Assembly: GCA_022567155.1 (NCBI GenBank)
Contig: JADFHN010000004.1
Coordinates: 1 to 64,000, forward strand
Reading direction: 5' to 3'
From: Bacteroidota bacterium
GTDB taxonomy: Bacteria; Bacteroidota; Bacteroidia; Cytophagales; Cyclobacteriaceae
DNA length: 64,000 bases
Shown: piece after piece, positions 7,639-47,494 of the stretch
Position numbering within the stretch: position 1 is the first letter of the stretch
How the letters are laid out: every line of letters begins with the position of its first letter
Translations under genes and position numbers: made by a program
Notes under the pieces: generated by a model
What the model saw: the letters and a program-made list of their open reading frames with translations, nothing else
Databases searched by the model: none
What the model was told of the DNA's origin: nothing

Positions 7639-7657
7639 GCCTGCCCACTAGGCAGGC
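7639..7657. repeat. Short palindrome after transglycosylase gene
   Basis: gcctgcc (7639-7645) and ggcaggc (7651-7657) form a perfect 7-bp stem with a 5-nt loop. No T-run follows, so it is more likely an extragenic palindrome than a strong intrinsic terminator. Confidence 0.5.
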
Positions 7658-7685
7658 GTCATTACATTTATGATAATTTTAGGTT

Positions 7686-7693
7686 TAACTTTG
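7686..7693 (+). promoter_or_regulatory. -7 element before CcoI fragment
   Basis: TAACTTTG matches TAnnTTTG 17 bp before the ATG of the 41-codon fragment. No clear -33 TTG lies at the expected distance, so the promoter may be weak. Confidence 0.4.
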
Positions 7694-7710
7694 TTTCCAA
7701 TAAATAATAA

Positions 7711-7836
7711 ATGCTTACCACCGGGAAAAAAACTGTAGATACTGAAATACGCTGTGCGCATTGCAGTGAAGTTTGCGATGATGATTCGATCCGGGCTGAT
7801 GATAAGAATTTTTGCTGCCTGGGATGCATTAAATGA
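7711..7836 (+). pseudogene. N-terminal fragment of CcoI/FixI-type copper P-type ATPase
   Basis: This 41-codon reading frame contains RCAHCSEVC and then FCCLGC. That pattern (CxxC...FCCxGC) is the zinc-finger-like metal-binding head of Bacteroidota CcoI/FixI heavy-metal P-type ATPases, which load copper into cbb3 oxidase. The full enzyme has about 800 residues with eight membrane helices and a DKTGT motif; none of that follows, because the frame stops at TGA (7834-7836) and the cytochrome c gene starts 67 bp later. It is best read as a deletion remnant. It could also be an independent small Cys-rich protein. Confidence 0.6.
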
Positions 7837-7849
7837 TCAATTTGGAGGG

Positions 7850-7879
7850 TTGCCAAATCTTATTGAATAATTACCTTTG
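7850..7879 (+). promoter_or_regulatory. Promoter for cytochrome c / nos remnant cluster
   Basis: TTG at 7850-7852, a 19-bp spacer and TACCTTTG at 7872-7879 match the Bacteroidota consensus. The cytochrome c ATG follows at 7903. Confidence 0.6.
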
Positions 7880-7902
7880 CAGGGGTAAAAAAATCATAGA
7901 AA

Positions 7903-8391
7903 ATGAAAAAAGAAATATTAAAATTCGGAATTACAGGAATGATCCTAAGCGGTGCACTGCTGACGTTTAGTTGTGGTGGCGGCAGTAAGGAATCGGCGGA
8001 AGGCGAAGCTGCTCCCCCCCCAAATTCAATGGTGGAAAAAGCTGAAGAAGTGGACCCAATGGATGACAAAGGTATCGGCCCGGTTTCCAGCTTAGAATTA
8101 GGCAGCGAAATCGATACAGACCTTGTCAAAAAAGGCGAAGAAATATATGGCCAAATGTGTACGGCATGCCATAAGCAGGATCAAGATTTTATCGGTCCGG
8201 CACCGAATGGTGTATTGGAAAGAAGATCTCCGGAATGGATCATGAACATGATCCTCAATCCGGAAGAAATGGTACAAAAAAATAAAGCCGCAAGAGACCT
8301 GCTCATCAAATTCAATGGCGCACCAATGGCTAACCAGAACCTGACTGAAGAGCAGGCAAGAGCAATTTTGGAATATTTCAGAACGCTTTAG
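7903..8391 (+). CDS. Lipoprotein c-type cytochrome of the nos cluster
   Basis: The 162-aa protein has a lipoprotein signal (LLTFSCGGG, Cys near residue 24) and a linker rich in Ala, Glu and Pro. One cytochrome c domain runs from about residue 70 to the end. CTACH near residue 84 is the heme-binding CxxCH site, and Met in 'GAPMANQNLT' near residue 145 is the likely sixth heme ligand. In Bacteroidota such small cytochromes precede nos genes and are thought to pass electrons to N2O reductase (established gene order). Here it is intact and 34 bp upstream of nosD, but nosZ is absent. Confidence 0.85.
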   Translation: MKKEILKFGITGMILSGALLTFSCGGGSKESAEGEAAPPPNSMVEKAEEVDPMDDKGIGPVSSLELGSEIDTDLVKKGEEIYGQMCTACHKQDQDFIGPAPNGVLERRSPEWIMNMILNPEEMVQKNKAARDLLIKFNGAPMANQNLTEEQARAILEYFRTL

Positions 8392-8425
8392 TCGTAATTT
8401 CAGCTTTGTCTGAAACGATTTAGTA

Positions 8426-9661
8426 ATGCTGAAATTCTTGATAACAGGGTTGATACTCACTCTTCCCTTGATGGCGGCGGCAGGCAGGATCAATGTATGT
8501 TCCTCCTGCCCCGTTCCATCTATAACCCTTGCCATAGAAAAAGCACAACCCGGCGATACCATTTTTATTGAAAGTGGACTCTACAAAGAAGGGAATATCG
8601 TTATTGACAAGCCACTTGTATTTATTGGTATTGATTTTCAGCAAATTGACGGCGACAATGAATACGAAATATTCACCGTTAAGGCTGACAGTGTTGTTAT
8701 AATGGGGATACAGTTCCAGAATATTGGCACAAACTATATCGAAGACCGGGCGGCTATCAATATCGTAAAAAGCCAGTACATACGGATAGAAGGTAACAGG
8801 CTCATCAACACGTTTTTTGGTATTTATCTTGAAAATTCAAAAAACTGCCTGGTAAAAGATAATTACATTAAAGGCGATGTGCAACAGGAAATATCTTCAG
8901 GCAATGCCATCCATGCCTGGTATTGTAAAAATCTTCATATCGAAGGCAATACAGTGATCAATCACCGGGATGGGATTTATCTTGAATTTGTGGACAGTAG
9001 CAGTATCGTGAATAACATAAGCAAAGACAATCTAAGGTATGGGCTTCATTTCATGTTTTCTGACGTCGACAAATACATTAACAATCATTTCGAGTCGAAT
9101 GGTGCGGGGGTAGCGGTGATGTTTTCGAAATATATCCGGATGCAGGGAAATAACTTTGTCCGCAACTGGGGTGCCGCTTCCTACGGTCTGTTGCTAAAAG
9201 AAATTACAGATGGCGTTATTGAAGGAAATTTGTTTTCTGAAAATACGATTGGCATATATGCTGAAAGCGCGAGCAGAATGAATATTGTCGGCAATGATTT
9301 TATCCGCAATGGCTGGGCGTTAAAAATTCTGGGTAGTTGCGTTGACAATAGGTTTGAATCTAACAATTTTATCAGCAATACCTTCGATCTGATTACCAAC
9401 TCGGCTAAAAACCCCAATGAATACGTTCGTAACTACTGGAGTGCGTATTCAGGATATGACCTGGATCATGATGGCATCGGGGACATACCTTATCGCCCGA
9501 TTAAACTCTTTTCGCACGTTGTATCACTTGTTCCAACATCTATTGTATTATTACGAAGCTTATTTATAGACTTGATTAACTTTGCGGAAACCGTAACCCC
9601 GATTTTCACACCCGAAACGCTTACGGATGATAAACCACTGATCAGAAAAATTAAAAGATAA
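8426..9661 (+). CDS. nosD: NosD, periplasmic copper-delivery protein for N2O reductase
   Basis: The 411-aa protein has a signal peptide (residues about 1-19) and a long series of right-handed beta-helix turns (CASH/NosD repeats). These are recognisable as recurring G-N-x-(I/F) ladders such as 'IEGNRLINTFFGIYLENS' and 'LRYGLHFMFS', the latter being typical of NosD. The C-terminal part ends in 'NYWSAYSGYDLDHDGIGDIPYRP', close to family norms. Known role: NosD works with the NosFY ABC complex to supply copper to the CuZ centre of NosZ. This copy is open over its full length, although its NosF and NosY partners are damaged and NosZ is missing. Confidence 0.9.
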   Translation: MLKFLITGLILTLPLMAAAGRINVCSSCPVPSITLAIEKAQPGDTIFIESGLYKEGNIVIDKPLVFIGIDFQQIDGDNEYEIFTVKADSVVIMGIQFQNIGTNYIEDRAAINIVKSQYIRIEGNRLINTFFGIYLENSKNCLVKDNYIKGDVQQEISSGNAIHAWYCKNLHIEGNTVINHRDGIYLEFVDSSSIVNNISKDNLRYGLHFMFSDVDKYINNHFESNGAGVAVMFSKYIRMQGNNFVRNWGAASYGLLLKEITDGVIEGNLFSENTIGIYAESASRMNIVGNDFIRNGWALKILGSCVDNRFESNNFISNTFDLITNSAKNPNEYVRNYWSAYSGYDLDHDGIGDIPYRPIKLFSHVVSLVPTSIVLLRSLFIDLINFAETVTPIFTPETLTDDKPLIRKIKR

Positions 9662-9702
9662 TAACGATCCATGGATTAAAGAAAGCGTTTAACAGCAATG
9701 AG

Positions 9703-10368
9703 GTGCTGAAGGGTATTGAACTTGAAATCATGCCCGGAAAGATCACGGCAATTCTGGGAACCAACGGGTCCGGTAAAACCACCCTGATCAAGAGCATACT
9801 TGGCATGGTCATACCGGATGAGGGAGAAATTCTGATAAAACAGGAATGCATTAAAAACCAGTGGAATTACCGGAGTGAAATCAGCTATCTTCCTCAGATT
9901 GCCAGGTTTCCTGAAAACCTGCTGGCAACCGAACTTATAAGCATGATTAAGGATCTTCGTAATGAATCAACAGATGAAAATCATCTTATCAAAATATTTG
10001 AGCTGGAAGAGTGTCTTGAAAAGAGGCTTCGTAATCTTTCTGGTGTTACTCGTCAGAAGGTAAACGTGGTACTTTCTTTTATGTACGACAGTCCGCTGAT
10101 TATTATGGACGAGCCAACGGTTGGTTTGGATCCCGTGGCTTTGCTGCACCTCAAAGAGCTTATCAGGGTGGAGCGGGCAAAGGGAAAAACCCTGTTGTTT
10201 ACCACACATATCATCAGCCTGGTCGAAGAGCTGGCCGATGAGATAATTTTTCTGCTGGAAGGAAAAATTTATTTTAAGGGAGAACCGGAAGAAATGAAAT
10301 CAAAACATGACCCCACAAGTCTGGAGAAGTCCATTGCTATGATTCTGGAAAAGGAAAATTATGTTTAA
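9703..10368 (+). CDS. nosF: NosF-like ABC ATPase, damaged start and signature
   Basis: The 221-aa frame from the GTG at 9703 has Walker A GTNGSGKTT and Walker B IIMDEP plus 'VGLDPVA', as in NosF. Two faults stand out. First, in-frame codons upstream (9658-9702) encode the missing beta strand (ITIHGLKKAFNSNE), but the expected ATG overlapping the nosD stop reads ATA. Only the internal GTG remains as a start. Second, the ABC signature reads LSGVTRQ where LSGGTRQ is expected, replacing a glycine needed for ATP hydrolysis in the family. It overlaps nosY by 8 bp. The protein is probably inactive or produced poorly, so it may be a pseudogene in the making. Confidence 0.8.
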   Translation: MLKGIELEIMPGKITAILGTNGSGKTTLIKSILGMVIPDEGEILIKQECIKNQWNYRSEISYLPQIARFPENLLATELISMIKDLRNESTDENHLIKIFELEECLEKRLRNLSGVTRQKVNVVLSFMYDSPLIIMDEPTVGLDPVALLHLKELIRVERAKGKTLLFTTHIISLVEELADEIIFLLEGKIYFKGEPEEMKSKHDPTSLEKSIAMILEKENYV

Positions 10369-11143
10369 AATACTTAAATACAGCTTTTTTGACCTGATAC
10401 GAAGCAGGTGGAGTCTGATTTACTTCCTTTTTTATTTCATAAGCAGTATCTCTTTACTTTACCTGGGTGGAGACCTCTCTAAAGCCATGATAAGCATGAT
10501 GAACATCATTATAATCCTAAGTCCGCTTATCAGCACGCTTTTCGGAATCATGTATTACTATAATTCCAGGGAATTTATTGAGTTGCTGCTAGCACAACCC
10601 GTACGGCGTACATCTATCTTTGCCGGCCAGTATCTCGGTTTGTCTATTTAACGTTCATTGAGCTTTTTGCTCGGAGCAGGCATTCCATTTGTTATATACG
10701 GATTGTTTCGTTCTGCAGAAATATGGAATTTCAGTGTGTTGCTTATTTCCGGAGTATTTCTCACCTTAATTTTTACCGGATTTTCATTTATGATTACTGT
10801 GCGTAACGAAAACCCGATAAAGGGGTTTGGTATAGCGATACTGGTCTGGTTATTTCTGGCGGTGATCTATGACGGTTTGTTTTTATTGTCGCTGATCATA
10901 TTTCAGGACTACCCCATTGAAAAACTTGCACTGGTCCTGACTATCTTTAATCCGATCGACCTCTCCCGCATTCTGGTTATCCTCAAAATGGATATTTCGG
11001 CGCTGCTGGGTTATACCGGGGCGGTTTTTAATAAATTTTTTGGTACGCAGGCAGGTATGTTGCTTTCATTATTAATGCTGGCGCTCTGGACGGTAATTCC
11101 TGCACCGGGATTTTTGTACTTTGCCCGGGAAAAGGATTTTTAG
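10361..11143 (+). pseudogene. nosY: NosY ABC permease, interrupted by one TAA
   Basis: One continuous reading frame encodes a NosY-type six-helix permease. An in-frame TAA at 10649-10651 splits it into 96 codons upstream and 161 or more downstream, with no shift of frame. The upstream part holds the N-terminal helices and 'AQPVRRTSIFAGQYLG', characteristic of the family. The downstream part (from about 10658) gives the remaining helices to 'PGFLYFAREKDF'. NosY forms the membrane channel that, with NosF and NosD, matures NosZ. With a stop after about one third of the protein it should be inactive unless read through. Confidence 0.85.
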
Positions 11144-11151
11144 CAGTAGGT

Positions 11152-12411
11152 TCAGATAATTTGTGCCAGCTTGAATTTTCTCCGGATAATTTGACCGTCA
11201 CGTGATAATTCCAGCCTGATCGTCCGGTTTTGTCTGGAGTTGAATACGCCGTTGATTTCAGCAAGTTCCAGGCTATGTGTCGGATGATTGTTAATTCTGA
11301 TGATTTTATCCCCTACTTTTATATCTGCCTTATGTGCAGAGGAGTTTGCACGCACATCCACAATTTCGAACGTATCTAAATACAGCCCCTGGGCTTTTAC
11401 AGTGATCCCACTCATGTTATAGTTGAAAGGGTCTTTATATTTTTTGTTTTTTTTCATGTAAACATGGCCGTCCATGAAATTGAAGATGATCTTGAACCTG
11501 TAGAAGATACCTCCACCCAGTGTGCCGTTTCTGTATATTTTCCGAAAATCCTGATCATAGAATTGTTTGTCAGGATAAATGGCAATCACATGGTTAAACT
11601 GGAATTTATCCAAATCCAGCATTTGTACTCTTGCAATCTCACCGTATATATCACCGCCAAGTCCGCGGCCCAGGTGGCTTCTGATTTTTTTATCCGGTAT
11701 ATTGATTTTATCACTCGATTCCTCATGCAGCATCAACGCATGGCTGGCGCCGGTATCCAGCATCAGCTTTACTTCGACCTCGTTACCGTCGTAAAACACA
11801 ACGCGTGCCATACAATAGGGTTTGGTATCTTCTATCGTGATGGGCATTGCATAATACTTTTTGTTTTTACTAATTTTCTTTTTTGCAAATGCCTCAGGCT
11901 CGTAAAACGTCATGGTTTTATTCTGGTAGTTGATTTCGACGATAAACCGGCTGAAAAGTTCATAACCAAGAATGCCGTGGATATTATGACCGAGATAATT
12001 TTTTAACTGCAACAAGTCTTCTTCAAGCACCAGCAGGGCATGACCTGTACCTTTAAGTCCATTGATATCCAATGATACATTCGTAGCAATGTACCCATCA
12101 ATAAGCTTTTTTCCGCCTACTCCCGGAATGGCAATTACTCGCGAGTAATTAATATTGAGAAGGTCGGTAAATGTTTTTTCCATAAGAATGGCAGTTCGGA
12201 TTCCGGTGTCAACAATAAATTTTAGTGGCAGGGTGTTGTTCAAAATCACTTTTACCACTACCAGGTTATCAATCAATTCTATGGGTACCGTATATTTCGT
12301 TTTACCCTCTGGCAAATTGAACCCTAGCCGGTTTTGTGCATCTGCCACTGGCGAAATCAATAAAAAGAAGTTAATAATAACAGCAACAAGTGCTTTTTTT
12401 AAATTATTCAT
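11152..12411 (-). CDS. Exported aspartyl protease (two retropepsin-like domains) with PDZ domain
   Basis: The 419-aa protein has an N-terminal signal peptide. Two pepsin/retropepsin half-sites follow: 'FIVDTGIRTAI' near residue 65 (DTG) and 'LMLDTGASHALM' near residue 218 (DTGA). The last ~90 residues form a PDZ domain ('VRANSSAHKADIKVGDKI' is the carboxylate-binding loop region). This architecture is a common periplasmic or surface protease-like protein in Bacteroidota, but its substrate is unknown. It is transcribed against the nos remnants, ending 9 bp from the nosY stop, and is intact. Confidence 0.85.
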   Translation of the reverse strand: MNNLKKALVAVIINFFLLISPVADAQNRLGFNLPEGKTKYTVPIELIDNLVVVKVILNNTLPLKFIVDTGIRTAILMEKTFTDLLNINYSRVIAIPGVGGKKLIDGYIATNVSLDINGLKGTGHALLVLEEDLLQLKNYLGHNIHGILGYELFSRFIVEINYQNKTMTFYEPEAFAKKKISKNKKYYAMPITIEDTKPYCMARVVFYDGNEVEVKLMLDTGASHALMLHEESSDKINIPDKKIRSHLGRGLGGDIYGEIARVQMLDLDKFQFNHVIAIYPDKQFYDQDFRKIYRNGTLGGGIFYRFKIIFNFMDGHVYMKKNKKYKDPFNYNMSGITVKAQGLYLDTFEIVDVRANSSAHKADIKVGDKIIRINNHPTHSLELAEINGVFNSRQNRTIRLELSRDGQIIRRKFKLAQII

Positions 12412-12606
12412 GCAGCCGGTAAAGTAAGAGATATTAATACAATTATAATGTATAAGTACATCAAGATTACGAAGATCACCTATTTACTGATTCACCTATA
12501 CGGATTTAGTAAAGATAATGATTAATAAAATCATGAAAAAATAGATAAAAATCTGATAAAGATCATTTTGAGAATATGGTTCATTTTTCTAACTTCAAAC
12601 TTTTAA

Positions 12607-12645
12607 TTAACACCTAACATTAACCTAACCTTAATCCTAAAATAA
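12607..12645 (+). promoter_or_regulatory. 11-bp periodic repeats, Pho-box-like
   Basis: CTAACATTAAC (12614-12624) and CTAACCTTAAT (12625-12635) are direct 11-bp repeats with a weaker third unit (CCTAAAATAAA). The repeat composition and period resemble the array upstream of pstS at 43109-43146. They precede the ccoO remnant directly. Binding protein unknown. Confidence 0.4.
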
Positions 12646-12655
12646 AATCTGCTTT

Positions 12656-12940
12656 ATGGGAATGGAAAGATACAGTTATGACAATAAGATAGTGAAATCC
12701 TTTGTTAACCTTGACAAGACCACATGTCGTATATCAGCAATGCGCAAGCTTGGTGTGCCGTATCAGGCCAGGTACGAAGAGATTGCAAATGATGATTTGC
12801 TGAGACAGGAGGATAAAATTGTAAATAACCTTAAAGCTGGCGGCCTGGAAGTTGCCAGAGAGATGGAAATTGTAGCATTGATTGCATATTTGCAGCGATT
12901 AGGTACAAATATTAAAGTAGTTGATAATTCAGCGGATTAA
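12656..12940 (+). pseudogene. ccoO: C-terminal remnant of cbb3 oxidase subunit CcoO (CcoNO fusion)
   Basis: From about residue 17, the 94-aa frame matches the last part of CcoO or the fused CcoNO of Bacteroidota: 'LDKTTCRISAMRKLGVPY', then 'EIVALIAYLQRLGT', the family's C-terminal hallmark. The catalytic CcoN part (about 450 residues) and the CcoO heme-c domain are absent. Upstream is only 240 bp of AT-rich DNA and then the protease gene. The first ~16 residues are not CcoO-like and probably come from the fusion created by the deletion. Remnants of ccoQ and ccoP follow in normal order. Confidence 0.75.
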
Positions 12941-12955
12941 TTTGAAATTTGCAGC

Positions 12956-13136
12956 ATGTTTAAGCATTATTTAGAAGGGATAAAGAATATAGAAATCGGA
13001 CCGATTATATCGCTGAATCTTTTTTTTTGTGGTGATCGTCTGGATTTTCAGACTGGATAAAGGATTTATTAACAAGATGAAAAACCTGCCGCTGGAAGAA
13101 GATAAACCTGAAAACAATATAAATATAGAAGAATAA
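12956..13136 (+). pseudogene. ccoQ: ccoQ remnant with frameshift in a T-run
   Basis: The frame opens with 'MFKHYLEGIKNIEI', typical of Bacteroidota CcoQ. It then enters a run of nine T (13020-13028), after which the frame is lost and stops early. With one T fewer, translation continues as 'FFVVIVWIFRLDKGFINKMK' to TAA at 13134-13136, a normal single-helix CcoQ. It lies 15 bp after the ccoO remnant and 27 bp before ccoP. A homopolymer sequencing error could mimic this lesion, but the flanking ccoO and ccoP damage supports true decay. Confidence 0.7.
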
Positions 13137-13163
13137 CTGACATTAAGTAATACACTACATTTT

Positions 13164-13673
13164 ATGAAAAAGAGATATTCAATAGCAGCTTTTATGATTT
13201 TTTTTATGCTTCCGGGCATAACTTCTGCCCTGGGTAACGAAGGAGGAGCTATAAGCCAGGAGTTTATGGTTATGGCCATTTTCTCAGTGCTGATATTAAT
13301 GGTATTTGTGTTGATAGTCGTCATATATTCATTGCTGTCGCTCAAGAAAGCAATCCATGAGGAAACGAATAAAACAGCCCGGGAGGGAGAGGAAGTTGAA
13401 GTAGCGCCAGGCTGGTGAGCAACATTTTATAATAAACTATGGAACCGGGCCAGTACAGAAGAGGAGCGGGATATTCTGCTTGACCATAATTATGATGGGA
13501 TACGGGAGCTGGATAACCATTTGCCTCCGTGATGGTCTTATTTGTTTTATTTCACCATAGCTTTTGGAGAAGTATATTTGCTTGTGTATCACGTATTTCA
13601 TATAAACCCGAAATTAAACCGCACCGAATCCAGCCCCGTTCAGATTGAGATGTGCGAACCGTCACGTCTTTAG
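13164..13673 (+). pseudogene. ccoP: ccoP remnant with two TGA stops and no heme domains
   Basis: The first 84 codons encode a signal or first helix and a membrane helix typical of CcoP. The frame then meets TGA at 13416-13418 (after GW, where the second of two Trp codons is expected) and again at 13530-13532 (in 'LPP*WSYLFY', where WW is expected). Reading through gives 'TEEERDILLDHNYDGIREL', 'FYFTIAFGEVYLLVYHVF' and 'VQIEMCEPSRL', unmistakable CcoP sequence, up to TAG at 13671. The C-terminal diheme cytochrome c domains are entirely missing. This subunit cannot function. Confidence 0.85.
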
Positions 13674-13952
13674 TTTGCCGGATAGTTGGCACATTTCCGG
13701 CTGTTACACCCTGCAGTGCTTTGGAGTATTAACAAGTCGGAAGAACTCATGAATATAAAAAAAAGCTTTTACCTGAATTCACCACCAAAAAGCGTTATAC
13801 ATCCGGGCATTCAATTGGTTATATTTTTTATTAGAACCTACTATTGTGATTTAGCTGATTTACTCTCAAAAGGCGATGAAGTCAGGAATACCAGGAAGCG
13901 TTGGAGGTTTAAATTAACAGACACATATCTCTTCTAAAGTCCTGGAAAACTC
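13674..13952. other. No supported gene
   Basis: An 83-codon open frame (13686-13937) exists but matches nothing I recognise and has no promoter or plausible ribosome-binding context. The stretch lies where the ccoP heme domains would be and is probably degraded DNA. Confidence 0.4.
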
Positions 13953-43167: not shown

Positions 43168-43175
43168 TAATTTTG
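43168..43175 (+). promoter_or_regulatory. -7 element of the pst promoter
   Basis: TAATTTTG matches TAnnTTTG, 19 bp before the pstS ATG at 43195. No TTG lies at the -33 position, as expected for an activator-dependent promoter. Confidence 0.55.
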
Positions 43176-43194
43176 TAATTTTAATAAAAACCAA

Positions 43195-44160
43195 ATGGGA
43201 AAAATGAAGAGACTTAAATTGTCGGCTTTTTTGATTTCGGGAATGGCAATCAGCCTTTTTTATGCGTGCCAGCCAGGGGGTACTTCAGAAGAGCGCCTGA
43301 GCGGCGCTGTTAAAATTGACGGATCCAGTACCGTCTATCCTATTACCAAAGCCATTGCAGAAGAATTCAGAGTGGTAATTCCCGATGTAAAAATTACCAT
43401 AGGTGTATCGGGAACCGGTGGTGGATTTAAAAAATTCAGCCGGGGCGAAACAGATATCAATGACGCTTCAAGACCTATTAAAAGCAGGGAGATAGATGCC
43501 TGCAAGGAAAATAACGTTGAATATGTAGAACTGACAGTAGCATACAACGGCCTTGCTGTATTGGTAAATAATGACAATGACTGGGTGGATCATTATACCA
43601 CGGAAGAGCTAAAGATAATATGGGAACCTGATGCACAGGGTAAAATTACACGATGGAATCAGATCAGGTCTGAATGGCCTGACGAAGAGTTTAATCTTTT
43701 TGGGCCGGGGGTGGCATCCGGAACCTATGATTATTTCACCGGAACCATTATGGGCGAAAGCGGCTCCAATAGGGGTGATTATACGGCCAGTGAAGATGAT
43801 AATGTGCTTGTTCTGGGCATTGCCGGAGACAAAAATGCCATTGGTTTTTTTGGTCTTACCTATTTTGAAGAAAACAAAGAAAAGTTGAAACTTGTTGGAG
43901 TTGATAACGGGAGCGGCCCGGTTACGCCGAATCTTGAAACAGTAAAAACAGGTACATACAGCCCGCTTTCCAGACCGGTGTTTATTTATGTAAGTAAGCT
44001 TGCAGCCTCAAACCCTGGAGTAGTAGAATTTGTCAGATTTTATCTGGAAAATGCAGATGAGCTTGTGCAGGATGTAGGGTACATCCCATTGCCGGCAACA
44101 GAGTATGCCGGCGAGTTGGAAGAATTCAATGCGTTTATTTCCAAAGAAGCTCAACAATAA
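43195..44160 (+). CDS. pstS: Phosphate-binding lipoprotein PstS
   Basis: The 321-aa protein has a lipoprotein signal (LFYACQ, Cys near residue 25) and the phosphate-binding fold: 'IDGSSTVYPITKAIAEEF' near residue 42, 'GVSGTGGGFKKFSRGETDINDASRP' region near 75, and 'GSNRGDYTASEDDN' near 188. The loop usually read as SGT(F/Y)D is present as 'ASGTYDYF'. PstS captures phosphate for the PstCAB importer. It is the only gene of the operon that remains undamaged. Since pstC, pstA and pstB are broken, the protein has no local permease. Confidence 0.93.
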   Translation: MGKMKRLKLSAFLISGMAISLFYACQPGGTSEERLSGAVKIDGSSTVYPITKAIAEEFRVVIPDVKITIGVSGTGGGFKKFSRGETDINDASRPIKSREIDACKENNVEYVELTVAYNGLAVLVNNDNDWVDHYTTEELKIIWEPDAQGKITRWNQIRSEWPDEEFNLFGPGVASGTYDYFTGTIMGESGSNRGDYTASEDDNVLVLGIAGDKNAIGFFGLTYFEENKEKLKLVGVDNGSGPVTPNLETVKTGTYSPLSRPVFIYVSKLAASNPGVVEFVRFYLENADELVQDVGYIPLPATEYAGELEEFNAFISKEAQQ

Positions 44161-44194
44161 ATCGAACTGTTTATCTATAGATTATTTCTTGAAC

Positions 44195-44228
44195 CCGGAT
44201 AGGTTTTATCCGGTTTTACCGCTTTTTT
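44195..44228 (+). terminator. Hairpin between pstS and pstC
   Basis: ccggata (44195-44201) and tatccgg (44207-44213) form a 7-bp stem with a 5-nt loop, followed by TTTT and, 8 bases later, a run of seven T (44223-44229). Such a partial terminator would keep pstS mRNA more abundant than the permease genes, a common arrangement for binding proteins. Confidence 0.55.
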
Positions 44229-44253
44229 TGTACATCGTTAAATCCAATAAAGA

Positions 44254-45131
44254 TTGGCCAGGCTTAAAGAAAAAGTAATTGAAGGGCTGCTGATGACAGC
44301 CGGGATGATTACTATACTTGCCACACTGGGTATCATCTGGATTCTCTTTTCCGGGTCTTATGGGTTTTTCAAAGAAGTGCCCATTAGAGATTTTTTAACC
44401 GATACGCAATAGACGCCGTTATTTACACAAAAACATTACGGCATCCTACCTTTACTCTCAGGTACCCTGCTTGTTACTTTTATCGCCACTCTGGTGGCTT
44501 TACCACTGGGAATTATCATTGCTATATACCTCAGCGAATATGCTCCGGTTAATTACAGGAATAAGATCAAGCCGGCGCTCGAACTCCTGGCGGCTGTGCC
44601 TACCGTGGTTTACGGTTTTTTTGCCCTTACCGTGGTAACCCCATTTCTACAGAATATCATTCCGGGGCTCGGTACCTTTAATGCGCTGTCGACGGGTATT
44701 GTAATGGGAATCATGATCATTGCAATGATCTCCTCGTTGAGTGAGGATGCCCTTCATGCAGTACCGAAATCAATGAGAGAAGCTTCATGCGGTATGGGCA
44801 CTATGCGGTTCCAGACAGCTATAAAAGTGACGGTGCCTGCCGCTTCATCGGGTATCGTGGTATCTGTGATCCTGGTAATAAGCAGGGCTATCGGCGAAAC
44901 CATGATTGTGGCAATAGCCGCCGGCCATCAGCCTGTTTTAGGTTAGATATTCAGCAATCAATAGAAACCATTACCGCATATATCGTGCAGGTGAGCCTTG
45001 GCGATGTACAACACGGTTCGCTGGAGTATAAAACGATTTATGCTGCGGGAATTACCTTGTTCATATTTACTTTTCTGCTCAACAATATCAGCTATTTTAT
45101 AAAAAATAAATATCAGGAAAAGTATGAATAG
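44254..45131 (+). pseudogene. pstC: PstC phosphate permease, nonsense plus frameshift
   Basis: Reading from TTG 44254 gives normal PstC N-terminal sequence, but an in-frame TAG at 44410-44412 occurs in 'TDTQ*TPLF', where the family has Trp (TGG). After it, the frame gives helices and the permease loop ('[15 protein letters not shown]...') until 44946. There a single-base loss near 44940-44945 ends it. The rest continues one frame over as '[21 protein letters not shown]' to 45131. No ATG start is visible. PstC pairs with PstA to form the phosphate channel; this copy cannot make a full protein. Confidence 0.9.
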
Positions 45132-45995
45132 CATTAAAAAAAACCAGATAACAGATAGCCTTTTTAATTACCTGGGGATCGCCAGCACAATGTTCGGGCT
45201 TATAATGCTTGCTATTTTTATAGCAAACATCCTGATAGACGGAATCGCAAGGATAGACTGGCAGTTTCTGACCAGCCTGCCTTCAAGAAAACCCGAAAAA
45301 GCGGGTATTCTTACGGCATGGACCGGCACAGTATGGATACTGGGTCTTACGGCGGTATTTGCTATTCCACTTAGTGTGGCAACAGGTATTTACCTGGAAG
45401 AATATGGGAAAAGAAACAAGCTGGGAACATTAATTGAAATAAATATTACCAATCTTGCCGGTGTTCCTTCCATTATTTACGGACTTCTAGGCCTTGAAAT
45501 TTTTGAAAGAATACTTCATTTCGTGTCCAGCCTGATGGCCGGAGCTTTTACACTCGCACTTCTTATATTGCCGATTATTATCGTGGCCACAAGAGAAGCC
45601 ATAAGAGAAGCCATAAGGGCCGTCCCCAATTCGCTACGTGAGGCATCATACGGAATGGGAGCTACCAAATGGCAGACGGTATCACATCAGGGGTATTGCC
45701 TGCCGCTTCAGGAGGTATTCTTACCGGCATTATCCTGTCGCTGTCAAGGGCAGTGGGCGAAACGGCCCCGCTTATTGTGATCGGCGCGCTGGCATATGTG
45801 CCGTTTGTAGCCAAAACACCTTTGGATGAGTTTACCGTGCTGCCTATGCAAATTTTTAACTGGACCAGCAGGCCGCAACAATGGTTTATTATCAATGCGG
45901 CTGGAGCTATCATAATATTACTGGCGCTGACCTTTATTATGAATGGCATCGCTATATATTTGCGCGACAGATGGCGAAAAAGGGTGAAATGGTGA
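45124..45995 (+). pseudogene. pstA: PstA phosphate permease, frameshift
   Basis: The ATG at 45124 overlaps the old pstC stop by 8 bp, the normal coupling. Good PstA sequence runs to 'GMGATKWQTVSHQG'. In the g-run near 45686-45690 the frame slips, and the shifted frame carries 'LPAASGGILTGIILSLSRAVGETAPLI' to TGA at 45993-45995. The conserved EAA loop, just upstream (about 45610-45690), is intact. The unshifted frame ends at 45780 with a wrong C-terminus of about 30 residues, removing the last two helices. Confidence 0.88.
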
Positions 45996-46012
45996 TATAT
46001 GGTTAATAAGTC

Positions 46013-46765
46013 ATGCCTGCAATACAGACAATTGACATAAACGCCTATTATGGCCCCAAATAAGCGCTTAAAAACATAAGCCTCGAAATTGAAGAACATT
46101 CAATCACTGCGTTTATAGGCCCCTTCGGTTGCGGTAAATCCACTTTCATTCGGATATTTAAAAGGATGAACGACTACATTGAGGGATTCACGATGGAGGG
46201 CCAGGTACTCATTGACGAACAGGATATTTATGAAAAAGAGGTACGTGTAGAAGAGCTCAGGCAACGGATAGGCATGGTATTTCAGAAACCCAATCCGTTT
46301 CCGTCATCGATTTTTGAAAATGTAGCTTTCGGACTCAGAATCAAGGGAATCAATGATAAAGAAGTGCTGTCTGAAGTGGTAGAAAAGTCGCTGATACGTG
46401 CCGTTTTATGGAATGAAGTAAAAGATGACCTGAACCATCCGGCATTGTTGCTATCCGGAGGTCAGCAACAAAGGCTTTGTATCGCCCGGACCCTTGCCGT
46501 GGAACCGAAGATAATTCTGATGGATGAACCTGCCTCAGCGCTGGATCCGATCTCTACTGCCAAAATAGAAGATCTTGCCACCGAGTTAAAAGAAAACTAT
46601 ACCATTGTAATTGTAACACACAATATGCAGCAAGCGGCACGGATCAGCGACAAAACTGCGTTCTTTTATATGGGAGAAATGATTGAATACGATAAAACAA
46701 CTGAGTTATTTACAAATCCTAAGAATGAACGAACAGAAAATTATATAACAGGCCGATTCGGTTGA
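46013..46765 (+). pseudogene. pstB: PstB phosphate ATPase, early nonsense codon
   Basis: From ATG 46013 the frame reads MPAIQTIDINAYYGPK, then TAA at 46061-46063 where Gln is usual (xKQALKN), then 'ALKNISLEI' and the full ABC domain to 46765. Walker A is GPFGCGKST, with Phe where Ser is normal. The signature [10 protein letters not shown] and Walker [14 protein letters not shown] are intact. PstB powers PstCA. Translation could restart only downstream of Walker A (about 46166), giving a useless fragment. Confidence 0.88.
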
Positions 46766-46807
46766 TATAGTTATTTTTAATACTTTATTAAAATAAATGA
46801 TGATACC

Positions 46808-47494
46808 ATGACAAATTTAGAACAGGCCATGGAGGAATTGAATGATGACCTGCTTGAAATGACCCGGTTGGTTGAAAGCCAGTTGAATAAATGCCGGAAA
46901 GCAGCTGTGTAAAATGACATGGACCTTGCAAAAGAAGTGGCTACAAGTGACAAACGGGTGAACGCAATGGATCTGAAAGTAGATAGGGAATGCGAATACA
47001 TTCTTGCTCTATATATGCCGGTGGCTACCGATCTCAGATTTGTGCTTGCTGCCATTAAAATATGCAGCAATCTGGAACAAATAGGCGATCACGCACAGCA
47101 GATTGCGAAAAGCACTATGAAAATCATTAAAAAAGCCGATATTCCGCTTAGCAGGAATTTTAAAATCCTCAAAATGTTCGATACGGCCATGTCGATGCTT
47201 GTAGATGCCTACGAAGCTATGGAAAACAATGACTCCTCGCTTGCCCGAAAAATATTCAAAAAAGATGATTTTATAAATGATGCCAACAAACAAGCTGCAA
47301 ATGTTGCTGCAAAACTACTAACAGAGAAAAGCCATAATTCGAAAATAATCCTTGAACTTTTCTCCATATGTCGGAAGCTCGAACGGATTGGCGACCTGAA
47401 TAAGAACCTGGCTGAAGAGATCATATTCCATCTCGAACTCGAAGCAAAGGTGCTGAGGCATAAAAATCGCAAAAATAAAATCAGAAAAAGTTAA
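46808..47494 (+). pseudogene. phoU: PhoU, early nonsense codon
   Basis: ATG 46808 opens 'MTNLEQAMEELNDDLLEMTRLVESQLNKC', a PhoU N-terminus. TAA at 46910-46912 interrupts it after 34 codons, where a Gln or Glu codon is expected. The remaining frame ('NDMDLAKEVATSDKRVNAMDLKVDRECEY' region, then the second three-helix bundle) continues to 47494 with no further lesion. PhoU tunes Pst activity and represses the Pho response. Loss of PhoU alone is often toxic when Pst is active, so its decay fits with Pst being dead as well. Confidence 0.85.

Follow-up and report, generated by a model that had tools for sequence, protein, structure and literature searches.

Accessory nos genes that outlast nosZ have been described before. 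Acidovorax caeni R-24608 has kept nosDFYL and eliminated nosZ (PMC4653804), and Neisseria meningitidis MC58 is cited in a passage of the same paper as carrying accessory nos genes without nosZ. A passage of PMC4250227 cites a long-term loss of nos in nirK-bearing Neisseria. Partial denitrifiers of the "initiator" type, with nir, with or without nor, and lacking nosZ, are common (PMC12569097). In Bacteroidota, the clade II (Sec-type) cluster consists of nosZ-nosL-nosD-nosF-nosY and a cytochrome c. The locus described here has the same type and order of NosD, NosF and NosY, and its cytochrome c belongs to the family that adjoins nosZ in relatives, but nosZ and nosL are missing and nosF and nosY are broken. 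It resembles A. caeni and N. meningitidis MC58 in that accessory nos genes outlasted nosZ, although in a different phylum and with, in addition, the lesions of nosF and nosY and the loss of a cbb3-oxidase (cco) cluster. It resembles the nirK Neisseria in having retained nirK and lost nos, again in another phylum and here with several stages found within one genus. As in the initiators, nirK (and, tentatively, nor) occurs without nosZ; that survey counts genes and its text contains neither nosD nor "gene loss", whereas here the loss is caught under way. The decay of accessory genes after nosZ loss is of a known kind, and what is added is a single genus in which three stages can be seen and the order of loss can partly be read.

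The window analysed here comprises 64,000 nucleotides (bases 1–64,000 of contig C90) of a 4.09 Mb draft genome (G000) in 171 contigs, 98.7% complete. It was compared with the syntenic contig of a sister genome (G001, 95% complete) and with a same-genus draft (G002, 58% complete), the contigs of which break within the nos cluster. We are highly confident that a clade II (Sec-type) nos cluster has recently been inactivated at this locus; the genome belongs to the Bacteroidota and stands close to the Flammeovirgaceae MAG SZUA-230.

The first two genes, both on the forward strand, are intact, as the initial annotation had proposed. The c-type cytochrome c gene (7903–8391; PF00034, 8e-8) is an open frame of 162 aa with a CTACH haem motif, and nosD (8426–9661) is an open frame of 411 aa which belongs to the NosD family with a score of 414 bits against TIGR04247 (cut-off 300). 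The next gene, nosF (9658–10368, forward strand), is a pseudogene, and comparison with the intact G002 copy bears out both lesions first reported, the missing ATG and the LSGV in place of LSGG. After the upstream stop, the codons read AAG ATA ATA ACG in the window versus ATG ATA ACG in G002, and the earliest table-11 start codon listed is a GTG at 9703. The overlap between nosD and nosF is ATGA in G002 and ATAA in the window: a single G to A change at position 9660 turned the nosD stop from TGA into TAA and at the same time destroyed the ATG of nosF, which explains the presence of an intact nosD beside a start-less nosF. The LSGV motif (10036–10047) ends with the substitution G130V (GTT at 10045–10047). 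Beyond the initial annotation, a second substitution, P35T (9760–9762), was found in the Walker A motif, which reads GTNGSGKTT versus GPNGSGKTT; A140S and A155V complete the list. The second glycine of LSGG is invariant across 76 NosF homologues and the Walker A proline is conserved in 99% of them. In nosY (10361–11143, forward strand), the single in-frame TAA reported at the outset was confirmed at 10649–10651, in an otherwise open frame of 260 codons. Relative to the intact G002 copy it replaces S97, in a column occupied by S or A in nearly all homologues, and it is directly followed by a further change, L98R, absent from the initial annotation (TCT CTT in G002, TAA CGT in the window).

A functional NosDFY requires a NosF with its start codon, Walker A motif and LSGG signature, a full-length NosY permease, a NosZ client and the copper chaperone NosL. 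In the window all three features of NosF are altered and NosY is cut to 96 of 260 residues by the stop at codon 97; NosZ and NosL are missing from the genome. Without a start codon, the Walker A proline and the signature glycine, which an ABC ATPase needs, NosF would be unable to work as one. Its function would thereby be lost, and NosD, as far as the sequence tells, would be left with neither an energised partner nor a NosZ to mature. The losses of consensus residues (those conserved in 70% or more of homologues) were unevenly distributed, with five on the window side versus one on the G002 side in NosF, one on each side in NosD, and in NosY nothing other than the stop and the neighbouring L98R. 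An intact cytochrome c and an intact NosD carrying no extra change would also be expected of a working relic.

The G002 genome holds intact orthologues of nosF, nosY and the adjacent aspartyl protease gene at the same place, with 87% DNA identity to the window over 8780–12705. Its nosF is uninterrupted, with an ATG start and LSGG, and matches the NosF structure 7o0y_B in the PDB; its nosY is open, with a serine at the codon that is TAA in the window, and matches NosY (7o0y_D, E 1e-9). Programmed recoding, by an ATA start and read-through of the TAA, found no support, as the frames coincide with those of this intact copy and as LSGV and P35T would remain. A reading in which nosF and nosY are really intact and the lesions are sequencing or assembly errors could appeal to the draft state of the genome and to the fact that the decisive point changes are only three, but we consider it extremely improbable. 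The 40 window genes with G001 orthologues, about 14,094 codons in all, contained neither stop nor frameshift (a few stops flagged in this check lay in antisense frames of real genes), so that several independent inactivating changes in nosF and nosY are confined to a dispensable cluster. The lesions consist not of homopolymer indels but of substitutions in strongly conserved positions, large deletions occur in the same island, one of them with a junction common to an independent genome, and the sister G001 has lost the same genes. The window genes that bear lesions, those of nos and of the phosphate uptake operon pst, are the ones absent from G001; the lesions thus follow gene function, unlike sequencing errors.

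The absence of nosZ and nosL from the window, already recorded in the initial annotation, extended to the whole genome when both were searched for there. The Sec-type NosZ model TIGR04246 matched nothing in this 98.7% complete genome, even at an E of 1, and the NosL model PF05573 gave no match anywhere in it; a short propeller model for NosZ matched no control genome either and carries no weight. Neither a second NosD nor an intact nosZ operon with its own NosDFY was found elsewhere in the genome. Among 390 genomes of the order, NosD was present in 96 and NosZ in 94, and the only two NosD carriers without NosZ were the window genome and G136, the latter being uninformative as its contig ends 1.3 kb from NosD. 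In this survey, no NosD carrier other than the window genome lacked NosZ despite a completely assembled nos locus. These observations bear on the proposal that NosZ and NosL lie in sequence missing from the assembly and that the helpers are still used, a reading to which the 171 contigs and the intact nosD lend some colour. The site where nosZ would be expected is nevertheless fully assembled in the window and contains no nosZ, the sequence on either side is collinear with G001, and NosZ lay less than 5 kb from NosD in 71 of the 71 same-contig pairs checked (gap of 1.2–4.7 kb, median 1.3 kb). With NosF and NosY broken as well, and with the genome nearly complete and devoid of a second NosD, an unassembled NosZ is barely credible. 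A NosZ located elsewhere in the genome was rejected, and with it the suggestion of the initial annotation that partly working helpers serve such an enzyme. The other branch of that suggestion, that N2O reductase was lost first and the helpers are decaying, fared better: loss and decay are strongly supported, and the precedence of nosZ is plausible. As to a spread by plasmids, nosDFY had no match in the plasmid collection.

The nos relic is part of a larger cbb3-oxidase/nos island under erosion, which extends roughly from 7,650 to 13,770, and the ruin of the neighbouring cbb3 cluster had escaped the initial annotation. A probable ancestral order can be drawn from G002, in which one contig carries LOG, SLT, ccoI, ccoS, crp/fnr and the start of nosZ, at the contig end, and other contigs carry nosD, nosF, nosY, the aspartyl protease gene and ccoN, then ccoO, ccoQ, ccoP, ccoG and ccoH (the cco names other than CcoI, CcoN and CcoO are our reading of the sequences). 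The presence of a Crp/Fnr regulator between ccoS and nosZ in G002 (L063, 764–1381) suggests that cbb3 and nos were jointly controlled by low oxygen in the ancestor. On the left of the island, only a 5' stub of approximately 40 codons of ccoI, the FixI-type copper ATPase gene, is left in the window (7711–7836, forward strand). The segment 7655–7828 shows 83% DNA identity to the start of the complete 818-aa CcoI of G002 (L063), and homology ends at approximately 7828, the deletion junction. The right side of this deletion (7829–7862) marks the removal of the 3' part of ccoI, ccoS, crp and nosZ, which follow the same SLT gene in G002, and probably of nosL. The nucleotides between the stub and the leader of the cytochrome c gene had no match in the G002 island or in G001. 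Beyond nosY lies the aspartyl protease gene (11152–12411, reverse strand; PF13650 and a PDZ domain), a neighbour outside nos that is intact in all three genomes. It is followed by a ccoNO relic (12656–12940, forward strand; FixO 1.5e-12) in which about 17 codons from the start of ccoN are joined in frame to the tail of ccoO. At the junction, position 12705, homology to contig C166 of G002 stops and homology to its contig C124 starts. The fusion forms an open frame of 94 codons that an annotator could take for a real gene. The ccoP relic (13164–13418, forward strand) is cut by a TGA (GWW in G002, GW and stop in the window), and a last deletion (junction at 13599–13601) runs from the middle of ccoP to the end of a TauE/SafE-like gene, with loss of ccoG and ccoH. 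A search of the window genome for subunit I of haem-copper oxidases gave an oxidase of the caa3/aa3 type and a divergent NorB-like protein, and no cbb3 CcoN.

In the syntenic contig of G001, nosDFY is gone, and the remnants consist of a short stretch matching the tail of nosY, a 5' stub of crp of approximately 110 bp, and the cytochrome c gene, kept with 80% identity and a dN/dS of 0.23. This cytochrome c is thus present in both sisters (7903–8391 in the window; L065, 4347–4790) although nosZ is gone from both, and relatives carry second copies of the same family away from nos; it may have another partner. The deletion between ccoP and the TauE/SafE-like gene has the same junction in both sisters, the G001 alignment (13497–13716) running straight across it. 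The ccoN/ccoO junctions are different, and so are the left ends of the deletions on the nosZ side, in ccoI in the window and in crp in G001. This pattern most likely means that cbb3 disappeared once, in the common ancestor, and that two losses of nos followed.

The substitution rates point in the same direction. Between the window and G002, dN/dS was 0.116 for nosD, 0.139 for nosF and 0.069 for nosY, with dS of about 0.42–0.48; these values indicate ordinary purifying selection and lie within the range of 0.03–0.19 obtained for further pairs of closely related intact clusters. For the window against G001, dS was 0.28–0.38 in four flanking genes. Had nosDFY evolved without selection from the G001 split onwards, over about one-third of the divergence, a dN/dS of about 0.37 would by our estimate be expected; the observed values exclude this, and the decay of nosDFY therefore came late on the window branch. 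Raised dN/dS as a proof of decay failed, the genes having died too recently: the values of 0.07–0.14 are averages over the whole window–G002 divergence, and only NosF has an excess of losses at conserved sites. In the ccoP relic, the unique changes at codon positions 1 and 2 versus 3 numbered 15:9, compared with 86:188 in nosDFY (p = 0.003), and the same test against three flanking genes gave p = 0.055, on a relic of only 65 codons. Nos died recently, most likely after cbb3, and was probably lost separately in each sister; the nosZ deletion and the lesions of nosF and nosY are all recent. A loss of nos already in the ancestor shared by G000 and G001 is disfavoured by the dN/dS values and by the different left junctions; a nested nosZ deletion that both share, and that eroded further on the window side, keeps a small probability. 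Had the deletion been common to G001, selection would have had to preserve NosD, with or without NosFY, for a period in some capacity unrelated to NosZ maturation, such as handling copper for NirK. The low dN/dS over the whole divergence and the intact NosD and cytochrome c agree with such a role, but the separate left junctions argue for recent independent losses of nosZ, G001 has lost nosDFY and yet kept NirK, and NosD hardly ever occurs without NosZ in the order. We regard this role as very unlikely, and find it just as doubtful that nosDFY or NosD alone was selected after nosZ loss in the service of a copper protein such as NirK, to be released only now.

We propose instead a stepwise loss. 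The ancestral island would have contained, in order, the transglycosylase gene, ccoI, ccoS, the crp/fnr regulator, nosZ, nosL, the cytochrome c gene, nosD, nosF, nosY, the aspartyl protease gene, ccoNO, ccoQ, ccoP, ccoG and ccoH, nosL and the cytochrome c gene being placed by us where the G002 contigs break. The cbb3 oxidase would have died first, with the deletion from ccoP to past ccoH that is common to the sister species. The loss of N2O reduction would have come later, in what look like separate events in each sister. On the window branch, the stretch from ccoI to nosZ and nosL would have gone in one or several deletions, and at roughly that time point mutations would have inactivated nosF and nosY.

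The window genome encodes NirK, a copper nitrite reductase with a fused cytochrome c (348 bits, cut-off 296), and a cytochrome cd1 nitrite reductase was not found in it. A divergent NorB-like haem-copper protein (L152, 283–1990, on contig C28) is encoded beside a NorC-like cytochrome c. Its best PDB match is the NorB 4xyd, a weak one (E 0.005), and no NCBIfam NorB model matched, so that the two are only tentatively a NorBC-like pair. With NirK, a tentative NorB-like reductase and no NosZ, any denitrification should, judging from gene content, end at N2O.

The pst operon (43171–47491) gives another example of a function that the sister has lost and that is in decay in the window: it is missing from the same place in G001 and looks broken here. 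The PstC frame contains a stop near 44410 and changes after 44943, that of PstA changes near 45700, and PstB is without its N-terminal start; PstS and PhoU look intact.

N2O is a greenhouse gas, and we know of no biological sink for it other than NosZ. The present case is one of ordinary gene decay, visible at three stages in three related genomes of one genus: intact genes in G002, freshly broken ones in the window and an almost erased cluster in G001. It also means that NosD alone is no proof of N2O reduction. The order of loss is partly readable, the microaerobic cbb3 oxidase going first, N2O reductase later, and nitrite reductase being kept. This makes the locus a small, clean case in which to ask why N2O reduction goes while N2O production stays.
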